Source of the DNA: an uncultured Spartobacteria bacterium
Lineage (GTDB): Bacteria; Verrucomicrobiota; Verrucomicrobiia; Chthoniobacterales; Chthoniobacteraceae
Reading direction: 5' to 3'
DNA: 59,473 bases
Assembly (NCBI GenBank): GCA_903882875.1
Contig: CAIRYQ010000005.1
Span: 1-59,473 of the forward strand
Part shown: in pieces, positions 1-7,875 of the stretch
How the letters are laid out: every line of letters begins with the position of its first letter
How positions within the stretch are numbered: position 1 is the first letter of the stretch
Program-made: the position numbers and the translations under genes
The notes under the pieces: model-generated
What the model saw: only the letters and a program-made list of their open reading frames with translations
What the model was told of the DNA's origin: nothing
The model's database searches: none

Positions 1-66
1 CGATCTCACCCGTCGTTGAAGTTCCATGCGTTCGGTATCAGTAAGAATCAATGGTTGAATGGCCAT
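1..66 (-). CDS. IS630-like transposase, N-terminal 22 codons (partial)
   Basis: On the minus strand an ATG at 66-64 opens a frame whose start, including ILTDTERMELQRRVRS, resembles the N-terminal helix-turn-helix region of IS630-family transposases (typically 'LTxxERxxLxxxVRSR'). It runs off the window, so the DDE catalytic domain cannot be seen. The second copy at 59385-59473 gives seven more residues and is otherwise identical. Confidence 0.65.
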   Translation of the reverse strand, partial: MAIQPLILTDTERMELQRRVRS

Positions 67-113
67 TCGCCAATCTTATCTCATGTGTGGCCGAAGTCAA
101 TGTTACGTTGCAC
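1..113 (-). mobile_element. IS630-like insertion sequence, 5' end only (left copy)
   Basis: These bases are the exact reverse complement of 59338-59450. The shared block ends at 113 directly beside a TA (114-115), the target dinucleotide of the IS630/Tc1/mariner superfamily. The inner end of the element reads GTGCAACGTAACATTGAC on the minus strand. The rest of the element lies outside the window. Two copies facing outwards with different inner flanks indicate two separate insertions rather than one circularised copy. Family assignment rests on the TA target and the transposase N-terminus. Confidence 0.75.
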
Positions 114-115
114 TA

Positions 116-295
116 GGACCAGGCACCCTAGGGCTGTTGGAGGTATTCGCAGCTAACCAGAATTCGAACAATATGCTTACTTGGCTCAAAATGAATTCAG
201 GTCATGCATGCACCATTTTGAATCTACCGAATGCAAGTCCTGTCCTAAAGAATATAATAAAGGAACTCATGAGCAAGCACCCTGAACTGCGATGA
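116..295 (+). pseudogene. C-terminal fragment of a gene cut by the left IS copy
   Basis: Immediately inside the IS boundary a frame runs about 60 codons to a TGA and reads like genuine coding sequence (for example LLEVFAANQNSNNMLTWLK and LKNIIKELMSKHPELR). It enters from the IS with no start of its own, so the original N-terminus is missing. It is clearly more AT-rich than the rest of the window, which suggests a recently acquired gene. I do not recognise the family. Confidence 0.45.
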
Positions 296-702
296 AGCGC
301 CTATTATTAAAATGAAGCGGTAGCACATTTTCAGTTGCCTGACTTTTTTCCTGAGTCTGTCGGTGGTTAGTCACACGCTGTGGCCCTAGGGCGAGCGGGA
401 GTCGAGTTGTAGAATATAGGGCGGAGCCTGCAACGATGCCGCTTTCCTCAATCCTCGTCGCTGTCCCTCAGTCGCTGGGGACGCACACCTAAGCAAAGCG
501 AAAGGTGTCATCATGAGCAGCGAAGCCCGAACCCGGTGGTTGATGTGCCGCATGAATCATGACCGGCGCTGCGACGGGCGGGATTTGTGCATGGTGGGGA
601 GGCTGGATTGTGGGAAGTTTGAATCGTCTGAGCTTCGCGAAGCGGTTCAATCTTCGCGGCGGGTCTTCGGTGGACAGGCGCAAAGTCTTCACCGTTTGCA
701 GA
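296..702. other. Intergenic stretch with no convincing gene
   Basis: Several overlapping frames are open on both strands between about 490 and 850, but none has a clear ribosome binding site, domain or plausible composition. The openness looks like a by-product of high GC. No tRNA, terminator or riboswitch fold was recognised. Confidence 0.5.
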
Positions 703-850
703 GGGACGAGGGACAGACTGATAGTCGTGGTCGTTCAGGGCAACAGACAAGACCAGTGCCACGCTTCAGCGTGCAGTACCGCGCGACGGCAGCTTGCGCG
801 CGAATCCGGCATCCGCGCCCACTCTCCCATCCAGCAGCCTTTGCGAGCTG
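703..850 (+). repeat. Dispersed intergenic repeat, copy A
   Basis: About 150 bp that recur in direct orientation at 1523-1671. Shared landmarks in order are GAGGGACGAGGGACAGA, CCACGCTTCAGCGTGCA (itself palindromic, GCTTCAGCGTGC), GCGAATCCGGCATCCGCGC and a CCCATCCxGCAGCC end. The copies differ by substitutions and small indels. Together they bracket the first 21-bp array. No protein is encoded convincingly. Confidence 0.7.
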
Positions 851-1070
851 AGGCCCGTGACTGCTTTGCAACGCACATCGCGCCCTTGCACTTCGGCGGG
901 CTGCCCTCGCCCTCTGAGGTGGGTGGCGAAGCCGCGGCGGGGTTTGGCGTAAGAATGGAACTGGCCGCCCGAGCACCCGCGTCGCTGCGCTCCTTCCAAA
1001 AGCACCGGAGGGCCGGCGCACTCCAAAAAGGGCCGCTTTTGACCGCTTTTCACGCCTTCCGAAGCCCGGA

Positions 1071-1511
1071 GTATCCCTGCGGCGAGTCGGCGTATCCCTC
1101 CGAGGAGTCAAAGTATCCATGCAAAAGGTCGCCGCATGGATCCGATGGCTTCGCGCAGGCCTACTTTGGACGTTCGCAGGCCTACCGCTGGCTTGCGGAA
1201 GCCTCCGCAAAGCTCACGTAGCCCTCCGCGAAGCTCGCGCATGGCTGCGCAACCCGCGCGCAGGCCTACTTTTTCCAAAAGGAGGAATGCGCCGACTCGC
1301 CGGAGGGCCGCCGCAGGGATACGCCGAGTCATCGGAGGAATACGGCTGCTCATCGGAGGGACACGATGGGTCGTCGTAAGGATGCGCAAGTCTCTGGAAG
1401 GGATGCGCGGGCCATTGGAACGGAAGAGGCAGGGTCGCGTTCACCGACTTTGCCCTTCCGTTCATCAAATTTGGCTGTGCGTTCATCAACGCGAGGTTTC
1501 CGTTCACCGAC
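1071..1511. repeat. Degenerate 21-bp tandem array 1 (about 21 units)
   Basis: Written in lines of 21 starting at 1071, the sequence aligns into columns with no indels for 441 bp. Examples are the unit starts GTATCCCTGC (1071), GTATCCCTCC (1092), GTATCCATGC (1113), GCAGGCCTAC (1155, 1176 and 1260), and a 3' sub-family with CGTTCATCA or CGTTCACCG (1449, 1470, 1491). Neighbouring units are most alike, so several sub-families succeed each other. Because 21 is seven codons, several frames stay open and read as heptads, for example RRPTLDV then RRPTAGL on the plus strand and KVGERKP then RVDERTA on the minus strand. No start or RBS marks a gene. Confidence 0.8.
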
Positions 1512-1522
1512 TTTGGAGGAAC

Positions 1523-1671
1523 GAGGGGACGAGGGACAGATAGTCCTGAACATTCAAAGCGGCAGACCAAAGCAGTCCCACGCTTCAGCGTGCAAAGCCG
1601 CGCGGCGGCAGCCTGCGGGCGAATCCGGCATCCGCGCGCACTTTCCCATCCGGCAGCCCGGAGGGCTGAAG
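1523..1671 (+). repeat. Dispersed intergenic repeat, copy B
   Basis: Second copy of the repeat at 703-850, in the same orientation and on the other side of the 21-bp array. It keeps GAGGGACAGA, CCCACGCTTCAGCGTGCAAA and GAATCCGGCATCCGCGC in the same order. Copy B then runs on into the hairpin cluster at 1680-1890. Confidence 0.7.
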
Positions 1672-1679
1672 GGAATGTA

Positions 1680-1890
1680 GCCGGTGCGTGGAGCCCGCCG
1701 GAGGCGGGCGGAACCACCGGATCCCCGTCCCCACGGCGATGCGCCCCGGAGGGGGCGCGGGGAAATGTCCGCGTCCCCTGTTTGCACCCGGTTCCAGCGC
1801 CCCATCCGGGGCGCATGACACTCTTCTACGTTCTCCGGTGGTTCCGCTACGCTCCACCACCGGCTACATTCCATTGTCCCTCCGGGACAC
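1680..1890. repeat. Cluster of short CCGGAG-type palindromes
   Basis: At least four short hairpins lie close together: GCCCGCCGGAGGCGGGC (1693-1709), GCGCCCCGGAGGGGGCGC (1741-1758), GCGCCCCATCCGGGGCGC (1797-1814) and GTCCCTCCGGGAC (1876-1888). The arms differ but the centres are TCC/GGA-like, as in intergenic hairpin families I associate with planctomycete and verrucomicrobial genomes. The surrounding text (GGTGGTTCCGCTACGCTCC) also looks repetitive. No CDS is supported here. Confidence 0.6.
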
Positions 1891-2106
1891 AACCAACGAC
1901 GACGTGCGCGCGCCTGACAGCGTGGTGAAGGACAGCGGGAGGCAGGGCAGCCTCGGGATTTAGGGACGGGAGGAGCGGCTTCATTCCGGCAAGCCCGAAG
2001 GCCCGGCGGGTGTCTTCGGAATTCTTCCCAGCCTGGCTTTGTCCGTAACCCGTACAGGCACAGGCGCTGTGGTCGTCCGGCTGCGGGGGTGGAAGGTTTG
2101 GTGGAA

Positions 2107-2379
2107 AAGCCGCCATCGTCTCCCCGAAACCCGCCGCCCTCTGCGGCAAACCCTTCCAGAAGCGCAGCAGACCTTTGTAGAAACGCGGCGTTTCCATCCA
2201 GAAGCCGAATGGAACTTGTCCACTCTCAACGCGTTGTTGGATGCCTTTGTCGTGTTGTTGGATGCTTCCGCGGCGTTGTTAAATGTTTCTGCGGCGTTGT
2301 TGAGTGCCTTTGCCACATTGCTGGATGCTCCTGCGGCGTTGTTGCGTGTTTCTGGAGCATTGCTTTCCCGTCATTGGCA
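2107..2379. repeat. Degenerate 21-bp tandem array 2 (about 13 units)
   Basis: Seven clear units start at 2233, 2254, 2275, 2296, 2317, 2338 and 2359, each beginning GTTGTTG or ATTGCT and continuing with a GATGCxTxTGCGGC-like body. About six weaker units in the same 21-bp phase precede them from 2107 (for example AACCCTTCCAGAAGCGCAGC at 2149). One plus frame reads LLDAFVV, LLDASAA, LLNVSAA, LLSAFAT, LLDAPAA, LLRVSGA, and the opposite strand reads NNAAETF-like heptads. No RBS or matching gene start was found. It shares the period of array 1 but not its consensus. Confidence 0.8.
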
Positions 2380-2594
2380 ATCGCCCCGCATCCGCGCGGA
2401 CATGAAGGCCGCGTTTTTCCCGGCAAATGAAATCGGATTGGACAGGCGTCTTTCCTAGGAACCATGACGGATGCACGAAAACCTGTCGGGCATTCATTCC
2501 ATGCCTAACGGACGGGCATGTCCATGAACGCGGACGCGGGTGCGACGGGCACGTCCCGCTTGCCTGAACACCCGCCTGTGCGCACCCTTCCGAC

Positions 2595-3014
2595 GTGAAA
2601 TCCTTCCGCAAAGAACTCTGGTTCGAGCTGCCTTCGCGCCGCGGCTTCGTGAACATCACACCGCAGGTGGAGGCCGCGTTACGCGAGAGCGGGATCCGCG
2701 AGGGGCTTTGCCTCGTGAATGCGATGCACATTTCCGCGAGCGTGTTCATCAATGACGACGAGCGCGGACTGCACGGGGACTTCGAGATGTGGCTGGAGAA
2801 GCTCGCGCCGGAAAAGCCGCACGCGCAATACCGCCACAACGACACCGGCGAGGACAACGCAGACGCACACCTCAAGCGCACGATCATGGGCCGCGACGTG
2901 ACCGTCGCCGTGACCGCTGGCAAACTCGACTTCGGCACGTGGGAGCAGATTTTCTACGGGGAGTTCGACGGCCGGCGGCGCAAGCGCGCGCTGATCAAAA
3001 TCATCGGGGAGTGA
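2595..3014 (+). CDS. YjbQ/UPF0047 family protein
   Basis: A 139-residue protein of the UPF0047 (YjbQ) family, whose members average 130-140 residues. The family signature fills the second half: [20 protein letters not shown] (about 80-99), then [16 protein letters not shown] and a [10 protein letters not shown] terminus. YjbQ has been reported to have weak thiamine-phosphate synthase activity, but its physiological role is unclear. The conserved His and Asp residues form the presumed metal-binding trimer site. The start is GTG at 2595. It stands alone after the repeat island. Family confidence is high; function is open. Confidence 0.92.
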
Positions 3015-3215
3015 CGACGCGTTTGTGAAGGCGCAGTCCATTTCGAATTCGCCAGACTCGCCCACGAGTTTGCCACGCCTGATGCGGGCATCACCCTTTC
3101 GCTCGAAGTCCCGCACGAAGGCCGCATCCTGCAAACCCGCGACGGCATTTACGACCATGCCTGCCTCATCGGGCGCAAGGACCGCGCGCCACGGGCAACT
3201 CGCCGCCCGAGGTGA
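3015..3215 (+). pseudogene. Possible coding remnant directly after yjbQ-like gene
   Basis: In the same frame, directly after the TGA of the preceding gene, 66 more codons stay open and read like protein (FEFARLAHEFATPDAGITLS, then LEVPHEGRILQTRDGIYDHA) before a TGA at 3213. There is no start codon or RBS of its own. It could be the tail of a decayed neighbour. I do not recognise the family, and an open GC-rich frame by chance is not excluded. Confidence 0.25.
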
Positions 3216-3295
3216 GAAGCGGCGCGCACCGTTGAAAGGACTTTCAATCATCGGTTGCCCTGGGCAGCCGCCGCAGCCATGAACGGCATCCGATC

Positions 3296-4225
3296 ATGAT
3301 ACTCCGCTTCCTCCTCGCACTCACTGCATTCTCAGCCAGCTTCGCCAGCGCGCAGGAGAAGCCTGCCCCGCCAGCCAAGGCCGCGCCTCCATCGCCCGTG
3401 CCGACCCATGCGGACATATCATTCGGCCCGCATCCGCATCAGCTCATTGACATCTATCTGCCGAAGAAGGGCGAGGCCCCGTTCCCCGTGCTGCTTTGGT
3501 TTGGCGGCATCTGGAAGGCGGCGAAGCATCCGGCGAATCTCGGCTTCTTCGACTCGAAGGGCATCGCCGTCATCGCGGTGGAGACGCGCACGATGGAGGA
3601 CGCGACGGCGGCGAAGGAACCGGAGCCGGCCTCGTATGTGCAGAGCGACGCGGCGCGCGCGGTGCAGTTCGTGCGGCACCATGCGGCGAAGTGGAACCTC
3701 GATCCGAAGCGCATCGCCGTCGGCGGCGGCTCGCAGGGCGCGCAGCCCGCGCTGTTCGTCGGCTGCTCGCGCGATCGCGCGAATGCGGCGGCGTCCGATC
3801 CCGTCGAGCGCGAGTCGTCGCTCGTAACTTGCGTCGCCGCATACCGCTGCCAGCCGACTTTCGATCCCGTGCGGATGCAGGAGTGGGTGCCCGGCGTGAA
3901 ATGGGGCGCACCCGCGCTCGGGGTCTCATTCGAAGAATCGCTGAAGCGCCGCGCCGAACTGCTGCCGATTTTGAAAAAATGGTCGCCCGACTACCTGCTG
4001 CACAAGGACGCCGCGCCGATGTTCTTCGAGAACGAATGGGGGCAGGTGAAGCCGGACGACATCACCCAGGCCAACTACGACGTGCACTGCCCGCGATGGG
4101 CGCTCGGCTTTCAAAAGTTCGCGCTCGCCGCGGGCGCAAAGTGCTTCGTGAAATTCCCCGATCATCCCGCCGACGATCCGGCGAAAGACATCTGGGACTT
4201 CGTCGCGAGACGCCTCCGCTTTTAA
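3296..4225 (+). CDS. Secreted alpha/beta hydrolase (BD-FAE / dienelactone-hydrolase-like)
   Basis: 309 residues. A signal peptide (MILRFLLALTAFSASFASAQ) is followed by a Pro/Ala linker, then the fold start LIDIYLPKKGEAPFPVLLWF with a GG oxyanion-hole pair. The nucleophile elbow is GGGSQG at about 142-147. Candidates for the acid and histidine are in KDAAPMFFEN (about 239) and FPDHPADD near the C-terminus. The arrangement fits secreted esterase-like alpha/beta hydrolases related to acetylxylan esterases and BD-FAE enzymes that trim plant polysaccharide esters. The substrate cannot be read from sequence. Confidence 0.8.
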   Translation: MILRFLLALTAFSASFASAQEKPAPPAKAAPPSPVPTHADISFGPHPHQLIDIYLPKKGEAPFPVLLWFGGIWKAAKHPANLGFFDSKGIAVIAVETRTMEDATAAKEPEPASYVQSDAARAVQFVRHHAAKWNLDPKRIAVGGGSQGAQPALFVGCSRDRANAAASDPVERESSLVTCVAAYRCQPTFDPVRMQEWVPGVKWGAPALGVSFEESLKRRAELLPILKKWSPDYLLHKDAAPMFFENEWGQVKPDDITQANYDVHCPRWALGFQKFALAAGAKCFVKFPDHPADDPAKDIWDFVARRLRF

Positions 4226-6924: not shown

Positions 6925-7875
6925 CTACGGATGAAAGCCTGCCCGCAACCACGCCGCGGCGATCAGTCCCGCAGTCACCGTTCCGCATACAATCTGCACC
7001 CACCCGCGCGCTCCGCGCCGCATTCCCGCTGCGAAAAAAGCCGCTCCGCAGAGCACTCCCGCGATGAGACCGAAAAGGTGCGCCATCAAATCGACATTCC
7101 CCGCGTCCATGATCGGAGCGCCGTCGTGATTTGTCCCGGCACCGCCGTAGAGCGCGAGGAATGCCAGCCCCGCGCCGACCGGCACGAGCAACTGCCAGCC
7201 CGTGCGCGTCGCGCGATGCGTGAGCCGCGCCGCGAGTTCGCCACCTGCGAGCAGGCCGAGGCTCGCGAAGAGCGCCGTCGAGGAGCCTAGGCTCGCGTGC
7301 GGTTTCGCGGCGTGTGCCAATGCGTTCAGCAGATTCCCCAACGCGCCGCCGAACACCGTGCCAAGCAGTCCCGCACCGACGCCGAAACGTGAAAAGACAA
7401 ACGCAAACGCGAACACCGCGAGGCCGAGATTCGACACGAGATGCTCGACGCCACCGTGCAGCGTGAGCGCCGTGAAACAGCGCCACCATTCACCGTGCAA
7501 AATCAGCGCATCCACCGCGACCCCGCGTTCGATCAGCGCTGGACTCGCAGCAGCCTGCATCCGGTAAAAGACCACCATCGCGGCGAGCATGGCCAGCAGC
7601 GCGAACTTCGGGATCACCAGCGGCTCCGGCTTCTGCACGGGCACGCGCGCATGCTCCTCCGCCTCAAATTCCGCCAGCGCCGCCGCCGCATGCTCGCGCG
7701 CACTTTCCTCGACAAACAGCACCCACTCGCCCTTCTCGCGTTCGATCCAATACGGCAGATCCATCGCGGCGATCACGAGCCCGCGTTCGCGCGCCGCCTT
7801 CAGCCTGCGAAAATGCCCGACCGCCGCGCGCGGCGCGGATGCTTCTGCATCGTCGTGTTCGTCAGGCATCATCAT
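6925..7875 (-). CDS. Rhomboid family intramembrane serine protease
   Basis: 316 residues. A soluble N-terminal part (about 1-85, containing PYWIEREKGEWVLFVEE) resembles cytoplasmic domains of GlpG-like rhomboids and precedes six predicted membrane helices. The loop His145 and Asn149 (EHLVSNL), the catalytic Ser199 in GSST and His266 in LMAHLFG match the rhomboid Ser-His dyad. The usual GxSG is GSST here, a conservative departure. It acts in the inner membrane, cleaving transmembrane substrates that cannot be predicted. It is divergent from the helicase gene. Confidence 0.85.
   Translation of the reverse strand: MMMPDEHDDAEASAPRAAVGHFRRLKAARERGLVIAAMDLPYWIEREKGEWVLFVEESAREHAAAALAEFEAEEHARVPVQKPEPLVIPKFALLAMLAAMVVFYRMQAAASPALIERGVAVDALILHGEWWRCFTALTLHGGVEHLVSNLGLAVFAFAFVFSRFGVGAGLLGTVFGGALGNLLNALAHAAKPHASLGSSTALFASLGLLAGGELAARLTHRATRTGWQLLVPVGAGLAFLALYGGAGTNHDGAPIMDAGNVDLMAHLFGLIAGVLCGAAFFAAGMRRGARGWVQIVCGTVTAGLIAAAWLRAGFHP

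Follow-up and report, generated by a model that had tools for sequence, protein, structure and literature searches.

The window, a 59,473-nucleotide stretch of an uncultured Spartobacteria genome (contig C5 of genome G000), carries near its left end two tandem arrays with a 21-bp unit, which we call A and B. Array A lies between the two copies of a dispersed repeat in direct orientation. Array B is unrelated to A in sequence, and the first confident gene to the right of the arrays, which encodes a UPF0047 family protein, is separate from both. The features of this region are as follows.

703 to 839, plus strand: dispersed repeat, left copy of the direct repeat around array A, 82% identical to the right copy.
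983 to 1050, plus strand: left flank of array A, common to two sister copies (the BLAST match starts at 983).
1050 to 1301, no strand assigned: left and middle part of array A, 21-bp units whose box changes from GTATCCCTCC to GCAGGCCTAC (folding, box positions).
1302 to 1322, no strand assigned: half-unit phase step, 10 bp fewer than in the sister copy on contig C68 (boxes at 1302 and then 1313).
1313 to 1430, no strand assigned: right part of array A, units in inverse orientation with box GGAGGGATAC (box positions).
1431 to 1516, no strand assigned: right end of array A, sub-family CGTTCAYCR, spaced at 21 bp; the sister alignments stop before or at its start.
1526 to 1658, plus strand: dispersed repeat, right copy of the direct repeat, 82% identical to the left copy.
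2143 to 2356, no strand assigned: array B, 21-bp units of the GCGTTGTTGGATGCCTTTGTC type (repeat search, lag scan).
2595 to 3014, plus strand: UPF0047 family gene (Pfam).

An earlier note had described 1071–1511 as a degenerate 21-bp repeat in perfect phase without a single indel. The array is real: the sequence folds into lines of 21 as described, and the four sub-families that were named are visible on folding. Autocorrelation gives an identity of 0.548 at lag 21, higher than at other multiples of three, a result that passes the refutation test set in the note (lag 42, 0.469; next best lag 32, 0.342; mean over lags 9–45, 0.265). When the whole window is scanned at lag 21, the three highest-scoring 200-bp stretches begin at 1065, 2144 and 1299, and first-order Markov copies of 30 genome stretches yield no peak at the scan threshold. 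The periodicity starts slightly to the left of 1071 (scan region 1031–1514). Tandem Repeats Finder recovers array A in part, as three short 21-bp pieces, and the array is therefore easy to miss.

Array A can be followed through a recurring 10-bp box, counted here at 7 or more matches out of 10. The left form, GTATCCCTCC, starts at 1071, 1092 and 1113; the middle form, GCAGGCCTAC, at 1155, 1176, 1197, 1218 and 1260; and the right form, GGAGGGATAC, at 1281, 1302, 1313, 1334, 1355, 1376 and 1397. The right box is the reverse complement of the left box, showing that array A has an inverted layout with its centre as the turning point. Between the boxes at 1302 and 1313 the step is 11 bp, half a unit, so that the 21-bp spacing claimed for the array stands and its freedom from indels does not; the lines of 21 still look aligned because the rest of the unit masks the shift. 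Near 1302–1322 the C68 sister copy has 10 bp more than the window, and as it keeps the 21-bp spacing there, a loss of these 10 bp (half a unit) from the window is more likely than a gain in C68.

Sister copies of array A are present elsewhere in the same genome, on contigs C129 (72174–72510) and C68 (133012–133363), with a weaker copy on C79 (46719–46975). Over 415 and 436 aligned bases, about 68 bp of left flank included, those on C129 and C68 show about 81% identity to the window. The alignment of the window with C129 has one gap, of 11 bp; that with C68 has gaps of 21, 1 and 10 bp, plus 1, 2, 3 and 7 bp in its poorly aligned last part; and C129 differs from C68 by 11 + 10 (one unit), 21, 21, 21 and 1 bp. 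These gap sizes indicate that units are mostly gained and lost whole, and only one half-unit step is seen among the copies. In 146 other genomes, with the best four candidates per genome scored, array A proper has no real-looking match, a search in which faint copies may be missed because the genome's own weak C79 copy was not among the matches listed. Seven relatives match a hairpin arm in the left flank only (981–1036), and two genomes, G006 and G018, have short matches that we read as ordinary coding sequence.

The hairpin arm belongs to a dispersed element, TTTGGAGTGCGCC...GGCGCACTCCAAA, one arm of which resembles window 983–1028 and abuts array A, and which is found in several related genera (loci L123–L143). 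None of 16 hairpin-arm loci of relatives has an array within the 1.6–3.1 kb examined. A near-perfect 42-bp array (identity 0.93; L140:884–1332, on contig C115 of the own genome) lies near another copy of the arm. Parts of the direct repeat (703–839, 1526–1658) recur at further sites in the genome, and array B has relatives on contigs C6 and C2. No match was found in either the plasmid or the phage collection searched, leaving a plasmid or phage origin unsupported. The UPF0047 gene is found at E ≤ 1e-20 in none of the nine same-genus genomes searched and is present in 11 of 28 other genomes, where the examined flanks carry no lag-21 array.

Array A is not a single oddity; it is probably one of dozens of mostly sequence-unrelated arrays of equal unit length. 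We scanned the own genome at lags 9–100, separating coding from non-coding peaks by a crude rule. Seven contigs (C120, C42, C15, C72, C34, C111 and C123; 958,631 bases) were not picked for arrays: they carry chance-level matches to array queries, and no array was seen at those sites. They contain 13 non-coding peaks, eight at 21 or 42 bp and one at 43 bp, the others having periods of 9, 12, 16 and 66. The strong 21- or 42-bp arrays L147, L189 and L191 are labelled coding by the crude rule and fall outside the count of eight; in our judgement, L189 and L191 lie upstream of the true gene start. The entire own-genome scan, which is partly array-chosen (1,276,106 bases), has 14 non-coding peaks of period 21, a single one each of 42 and 43, and six with other periods, among which L227 proves on inspection to be a 21-bp array. 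By scaling up, the genome should hold some 50–70 arrays. Array A is ordinary within its genome; it is the genome that is not ordinary. The peak of period 66, in a region of contig C120 (about 155606–156231; L151:15606–16231), is CRISPR-like by eye, with a constant 32-bp repeat and unlike 34-bp spacers.

As a control we scanned 811,091 bases around a conserved gene at 80 loci of other genomes. The six non-coding peaks there have periods of 16, 27, 27, 41, 92 and 100, none of them 21 or 42, and there is one coding peak at 21. The 41-bp peak is a near-perfect non-coding array in a Tannerellaceae MAG (L053:125–748), so periods near two or four helical turns are not wholly confined to this lineage. 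The earlier note had proposed looking for 21-bp arrays in related genomes. Some relatives do have them: non-coding peaks at 21 or 42 bp number three in 340 kb of G007, two in 280 kb of G002 and none in 140 kb of G008, while samples of 28 kb each give one peak in G009 (41 bp) and one in G014. Thin samples of about 4–40 kb from each of ten further relatives contain none at 21 or 42. Genome G001 has a short non-coding array of period 11 (L205, about 7610–7690; GGTTGGAAGGA).

To describe the period we used a list of 33 arrays, which were mostly picked for 21- or 42-bp periods and therefore measure its precision, not its frequency. The best lag in the range 15–53 is exactly 21 or 42 in 31 of the 33; the exceptions, L157 (43) and L210 (41), are not codon-based and yet come close to four helical turns. 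Identity at lags 14, 28 and 35 does not rise above background, showing that there is no 7-bp sub-unit. The 33 arrays together show no half-unit (one-turn, 10.5 bp) similarity (Wilcoxon p = 0.57), which counts against a single helical turn as the ruler; array A and its copies, unlike the set of 33, show a small half-unit excess. Two of the 42-bp arrays, L173 and L259, look like paired diverged 21-mers (lag-21 identity 0.49 and 0.65), and two others, L152 and L271, do not (0.26 and 0.10).

The arrays share a length and not a sequence. Pairwise comparison of the 33 strengthens this claim: only 12 of the 528 possible pairs match at E ≤ 1e-3, and each of these falls within one of four small families, namely A (four loci), B (three), the alaS array described below with L189 (two), and L147, L193 and L200b (three). 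Array L158 has two relatives elsewhere in the genome (three loci). Among young arrays, defined as non-coding peaks with an identity of at least 0.85 in the own and relative genomes, a period of 21 or 42 is found in eight of nine; the remaining one, L169 (69 bp), seems to be a leucine-rich-repeat gene.

Many units are palindromic. Dyad symmetry of the unit reaches p < 0.05 in 14 of 27 arrays when compared with genomic pseudo-arrays given equal noise (Fisher 3e-14), and in 16 of 30 by column shuffle. The test of 27, the stricter one, omits three of the 30 rows, the right half of array A and the C79 and C6 relatives, all of which have p < 0.05 by column shuffle. One of the strongest signals comes from the left half of array A; the symmetry of the array B unit is not significant (0.71 and 0.08, the former against the pseudo-arrays). 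Several young arrays show little or no signal (L247, p = 0.85; L237, 0.40; L200a, 0.27; L193, 0.25). The lack of a clear palindrome there and in array B weakens the case for hairpin-driven amplification. Degenerate arrays tend to give a stronger signal, which may be due in part to both orientations being mixed on one grid, as in A.

One array lies inside an essential gene. The own alaS carries an in-frame 21-bp array of about 309 bp in the loop between TLP and DVAFRVIADHIR. In the 26 genomes in which this loop was read, four have arrays: the own genome, G002 (42 bp), G016 (21 bp) and G041 (42 bp). Their units are mutually unrelated, and G041 belongs to another family. The other 22 loops are short, except in G014, where the insert (L265) is, as we take it by eye, an alkyltransferase-like stretch. 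The loop query matched at least 175 of the 213 genomes of the order; all but those whose loops were read or re-searched were judged from match tables alone. We re-searched 22 genomes with split or partial loop matches, where 18 loops were readable, one cut at a contig end; these 18 show no comparable period, the highest lag-21 and lag-42 identities being 0.36 and 0.39 (G028). Most of the re-searched loops, many of them from genomes of family f8, contain other, non-periodic inserts ('GVSPA...RDAQP' and others; L294–L311), so the loop tolerates insertions and serves as a natural trap. Counting against a ruler, arrays within genes have to be multiples of three in any case.

What the arrays have in common is a length near two helical turns, often combined with dyad symmetry; they have neither a sequence, nor a reading frame, nor a gene context in common. 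Crude gene calls place them between convergent, between divergent and between tandem genes, at distances that are not fixed, a varied placement that makes promoter, terminator or translation roles unlikely as a general function. The reading we prefer, to which we give about an even chance, is that array A is non-coding, satellite-like DNA and that the genome-wide set has grown and spread in 21-bp steps set by a ruler of about two turns. Here the ruler and the amplifying agent are what we infer. Arrays would arise and lengthen through tandem duplication, each step measuring two turns of the DNA helix, perhaps helped by hairpin-forming units through slippage or template switching in replication or repair, or through an enzyme that acts on hairpins. 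They would then drift by substitution with their length kept, and might occasionally give rise to copies at new sites or undergo a second amplification as 42-bp double units. We place the ruler in the amplification step and not in later selection because the young, near-identical arrays already have the period. The broader claim, that the lineage has a sequence-independent amplification process with a two-turn ruler that lays down 'satellite DNA' at dozens of loci including an essential gene, is one we hold only tentatively.

Two of the readings first offered for array A, a phased DNA array and a self-propagating short element, each fit the wider evidence: the spacing is two turns while the sequence is free, about half of the arrays have palindromic units, small families occupy several loci, and unrelated arrays share the alaS loop of four genomes; the binding protein of the one and the propagating enzyme of the other are putative. 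Amplification by a ruler has as its main rival a binding protein that selects for spacing; the next is a REP-like transposase.

The main rival holds that a putative dyad-symmetric protein of low specificity, of a nucleoid or silencing type, occupies one face of the helix at two-turn intervals, and that selection would keep the spacing and the dyads while letting the sequence drift. This would account for strict length with loose sequence, for palindromic units in about half of the arrays, for the scarcity of small indels between sister copies that have diverged by about 19% (a raw count, taken without a neutral expectation) and for the inverted units of array A sitting on one grid, the half-unit step aside. 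However, selection acting after random duplication would not predict that young arrays are periodic from the start, and the arrays occur alike in all gene orientations, with one inside alaS. We regard this protein-phased alternative as unlikely, although it comes closest to the preferred one.

REP-like palindromic elements, spread by a RAYT or another Y1 transposase and clustered head to tail, are a less probable source. The units are of the 20-bp class, palindromic in about half of the arrays, and some are dispersed; the own genome has three Y1_Tnp genes (PF01797; on C120, C92 and C3), one of them about 1.8 kb from a 21-bp array on C120. Clustered REPs, REPs within genes and REPs of a verrucomicrobial genome have been described (PMC3733652). 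REP and REPIN elements with their RAYTs are likewise palindromes of about 20 bp, dispersed, clustered and also within genes, and Y1 transposases are present here (PMC3733652). The arrays differ from them in being long and contiguous and in having no sequence common to all: relatedness is confined to the few pairs given above, and ends like the GTAG tag (REP palindromes share a GTAG or CGTC tag) are seen, by eye, only in array A. Moreover, genome G041 carries an alaS array and has no PF01797 match, which hints at arrays without a Y1 transposase, and no array lies within the 2.4 kb examined around the Y1 copy on C92. On this evidence we think a REP-like origin improbable.

A structured RNA, in which the array would be transcribed and work as a long hairpin, is more improbable still. 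The predicted folding energy of 1040–1520 lies well below that of shuffles (z = −6.2 on the plus and −7.1 on the minus strand), and the real order of units gives a lower energy than shuffled orders in A68 (matched by 0 of 60 shuffles) and L158 (2 of 60), with array A borderline (4 of 60). However, a stable fold is what the inverted units lead one to expect. The two strands of array A give folds of about equal stability, no clear effect of unit order is seen in five of the eight arrays tested, pair-keeping double changes are near chance in small numbers (plus strand, 2/6 and 2/6; minus strand, 1/5 and 1/6), and window 1–3300 has no Rfam match. An RNA element was rejected as a candidate, its strong fold not being backed by covariation between copies.

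A heptad-repeat gene, remnant or living, was also put forward as a former coiled-coil gene and is scarcely credible: 21 bp is seven codons, array A has one stop-free frame, its C129 copy two and some arrays several, and four arrays are in frame inside alaS, but the 1-, 10- and 11-bp gaps between sister copies shift any frame so that none is kept (the half-unit step alone breaks any frame common to the window and C68), stops occur in all six frames of the C68 copy, L146 (second array), L157, L210 and L259, periods of 41 and 43 bp exist, and no Pfam family matches any of the four ORFs over array A. A Pfam scan for a coding origin, covering ten ORFs in or near arrays, gave only UPF0047 and a PIN domain beside the C2 array above the cut-off.

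Bacterial minisatellites (VNTR) are head-to-tail units of 10–100 bp, intergenic or in frame within genes, that differ by whole units. The arrays described here have the same layout of head-to-tail units of one length, the same intergenic and in-frame sites, and whole-unit differences, found between sister loci within one genome. Unlike minisatellites, many sequence-unrelated arrays here have one period, about half are palindromic, and the degenerate ones keep their length though neighbouring units match at only about 55% (array A). CRISPR arrays differ again, as the units here are contiguous and have no spacers. Eukaryotic satellite DNA is amplified in tandem irrespective of sequence, is homogenised locally and forms higher-order repeats. 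The arrays resemble it in their proposed sequence-free amplification, local homogenisation and doubling to 42-bp higher-order units, and differ in a unit of 21 bp, in lengths of about 150–900 bp only and in being bacterial. The TAACTGA heptamer repeats of Beggiatoaceae are numerous intergenic direct repeats mostly just upstream of start codons (PMC4679880); they are like the arrays in being numerous intergenic direct repeats in one bacterial lineage, but theirs is one fixed 7-bp sequence, whereas the arrays have no fixed sequence and no 7-bp sub-period. Among the titles and abstract openings listed from open-licence PMC papers, we found no description of sequence-unrelated arrays with one period.

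These results suggest that something makes or keeps repeats of about two helix turns irrespective of their sequence. The usual explanations of tandem repeats are slippage at a chance starting length and selection on protein repeats. Many unrelated non-coding arrays of one exact length point instead to a physical ruler, which might lie in helix geometry, an enzyme or a filament, and the question of what sets the unit length of a tandem repeat becomes testable. The alaS loop is a ready natural assay, since arrays of different sequence occupy the same place in several genomes. As a side observation, contigs G031:C12, G021:C139, G083:C76 and G197:C236 end within or near the alaS query region, where assemblies possibly break at arrays.
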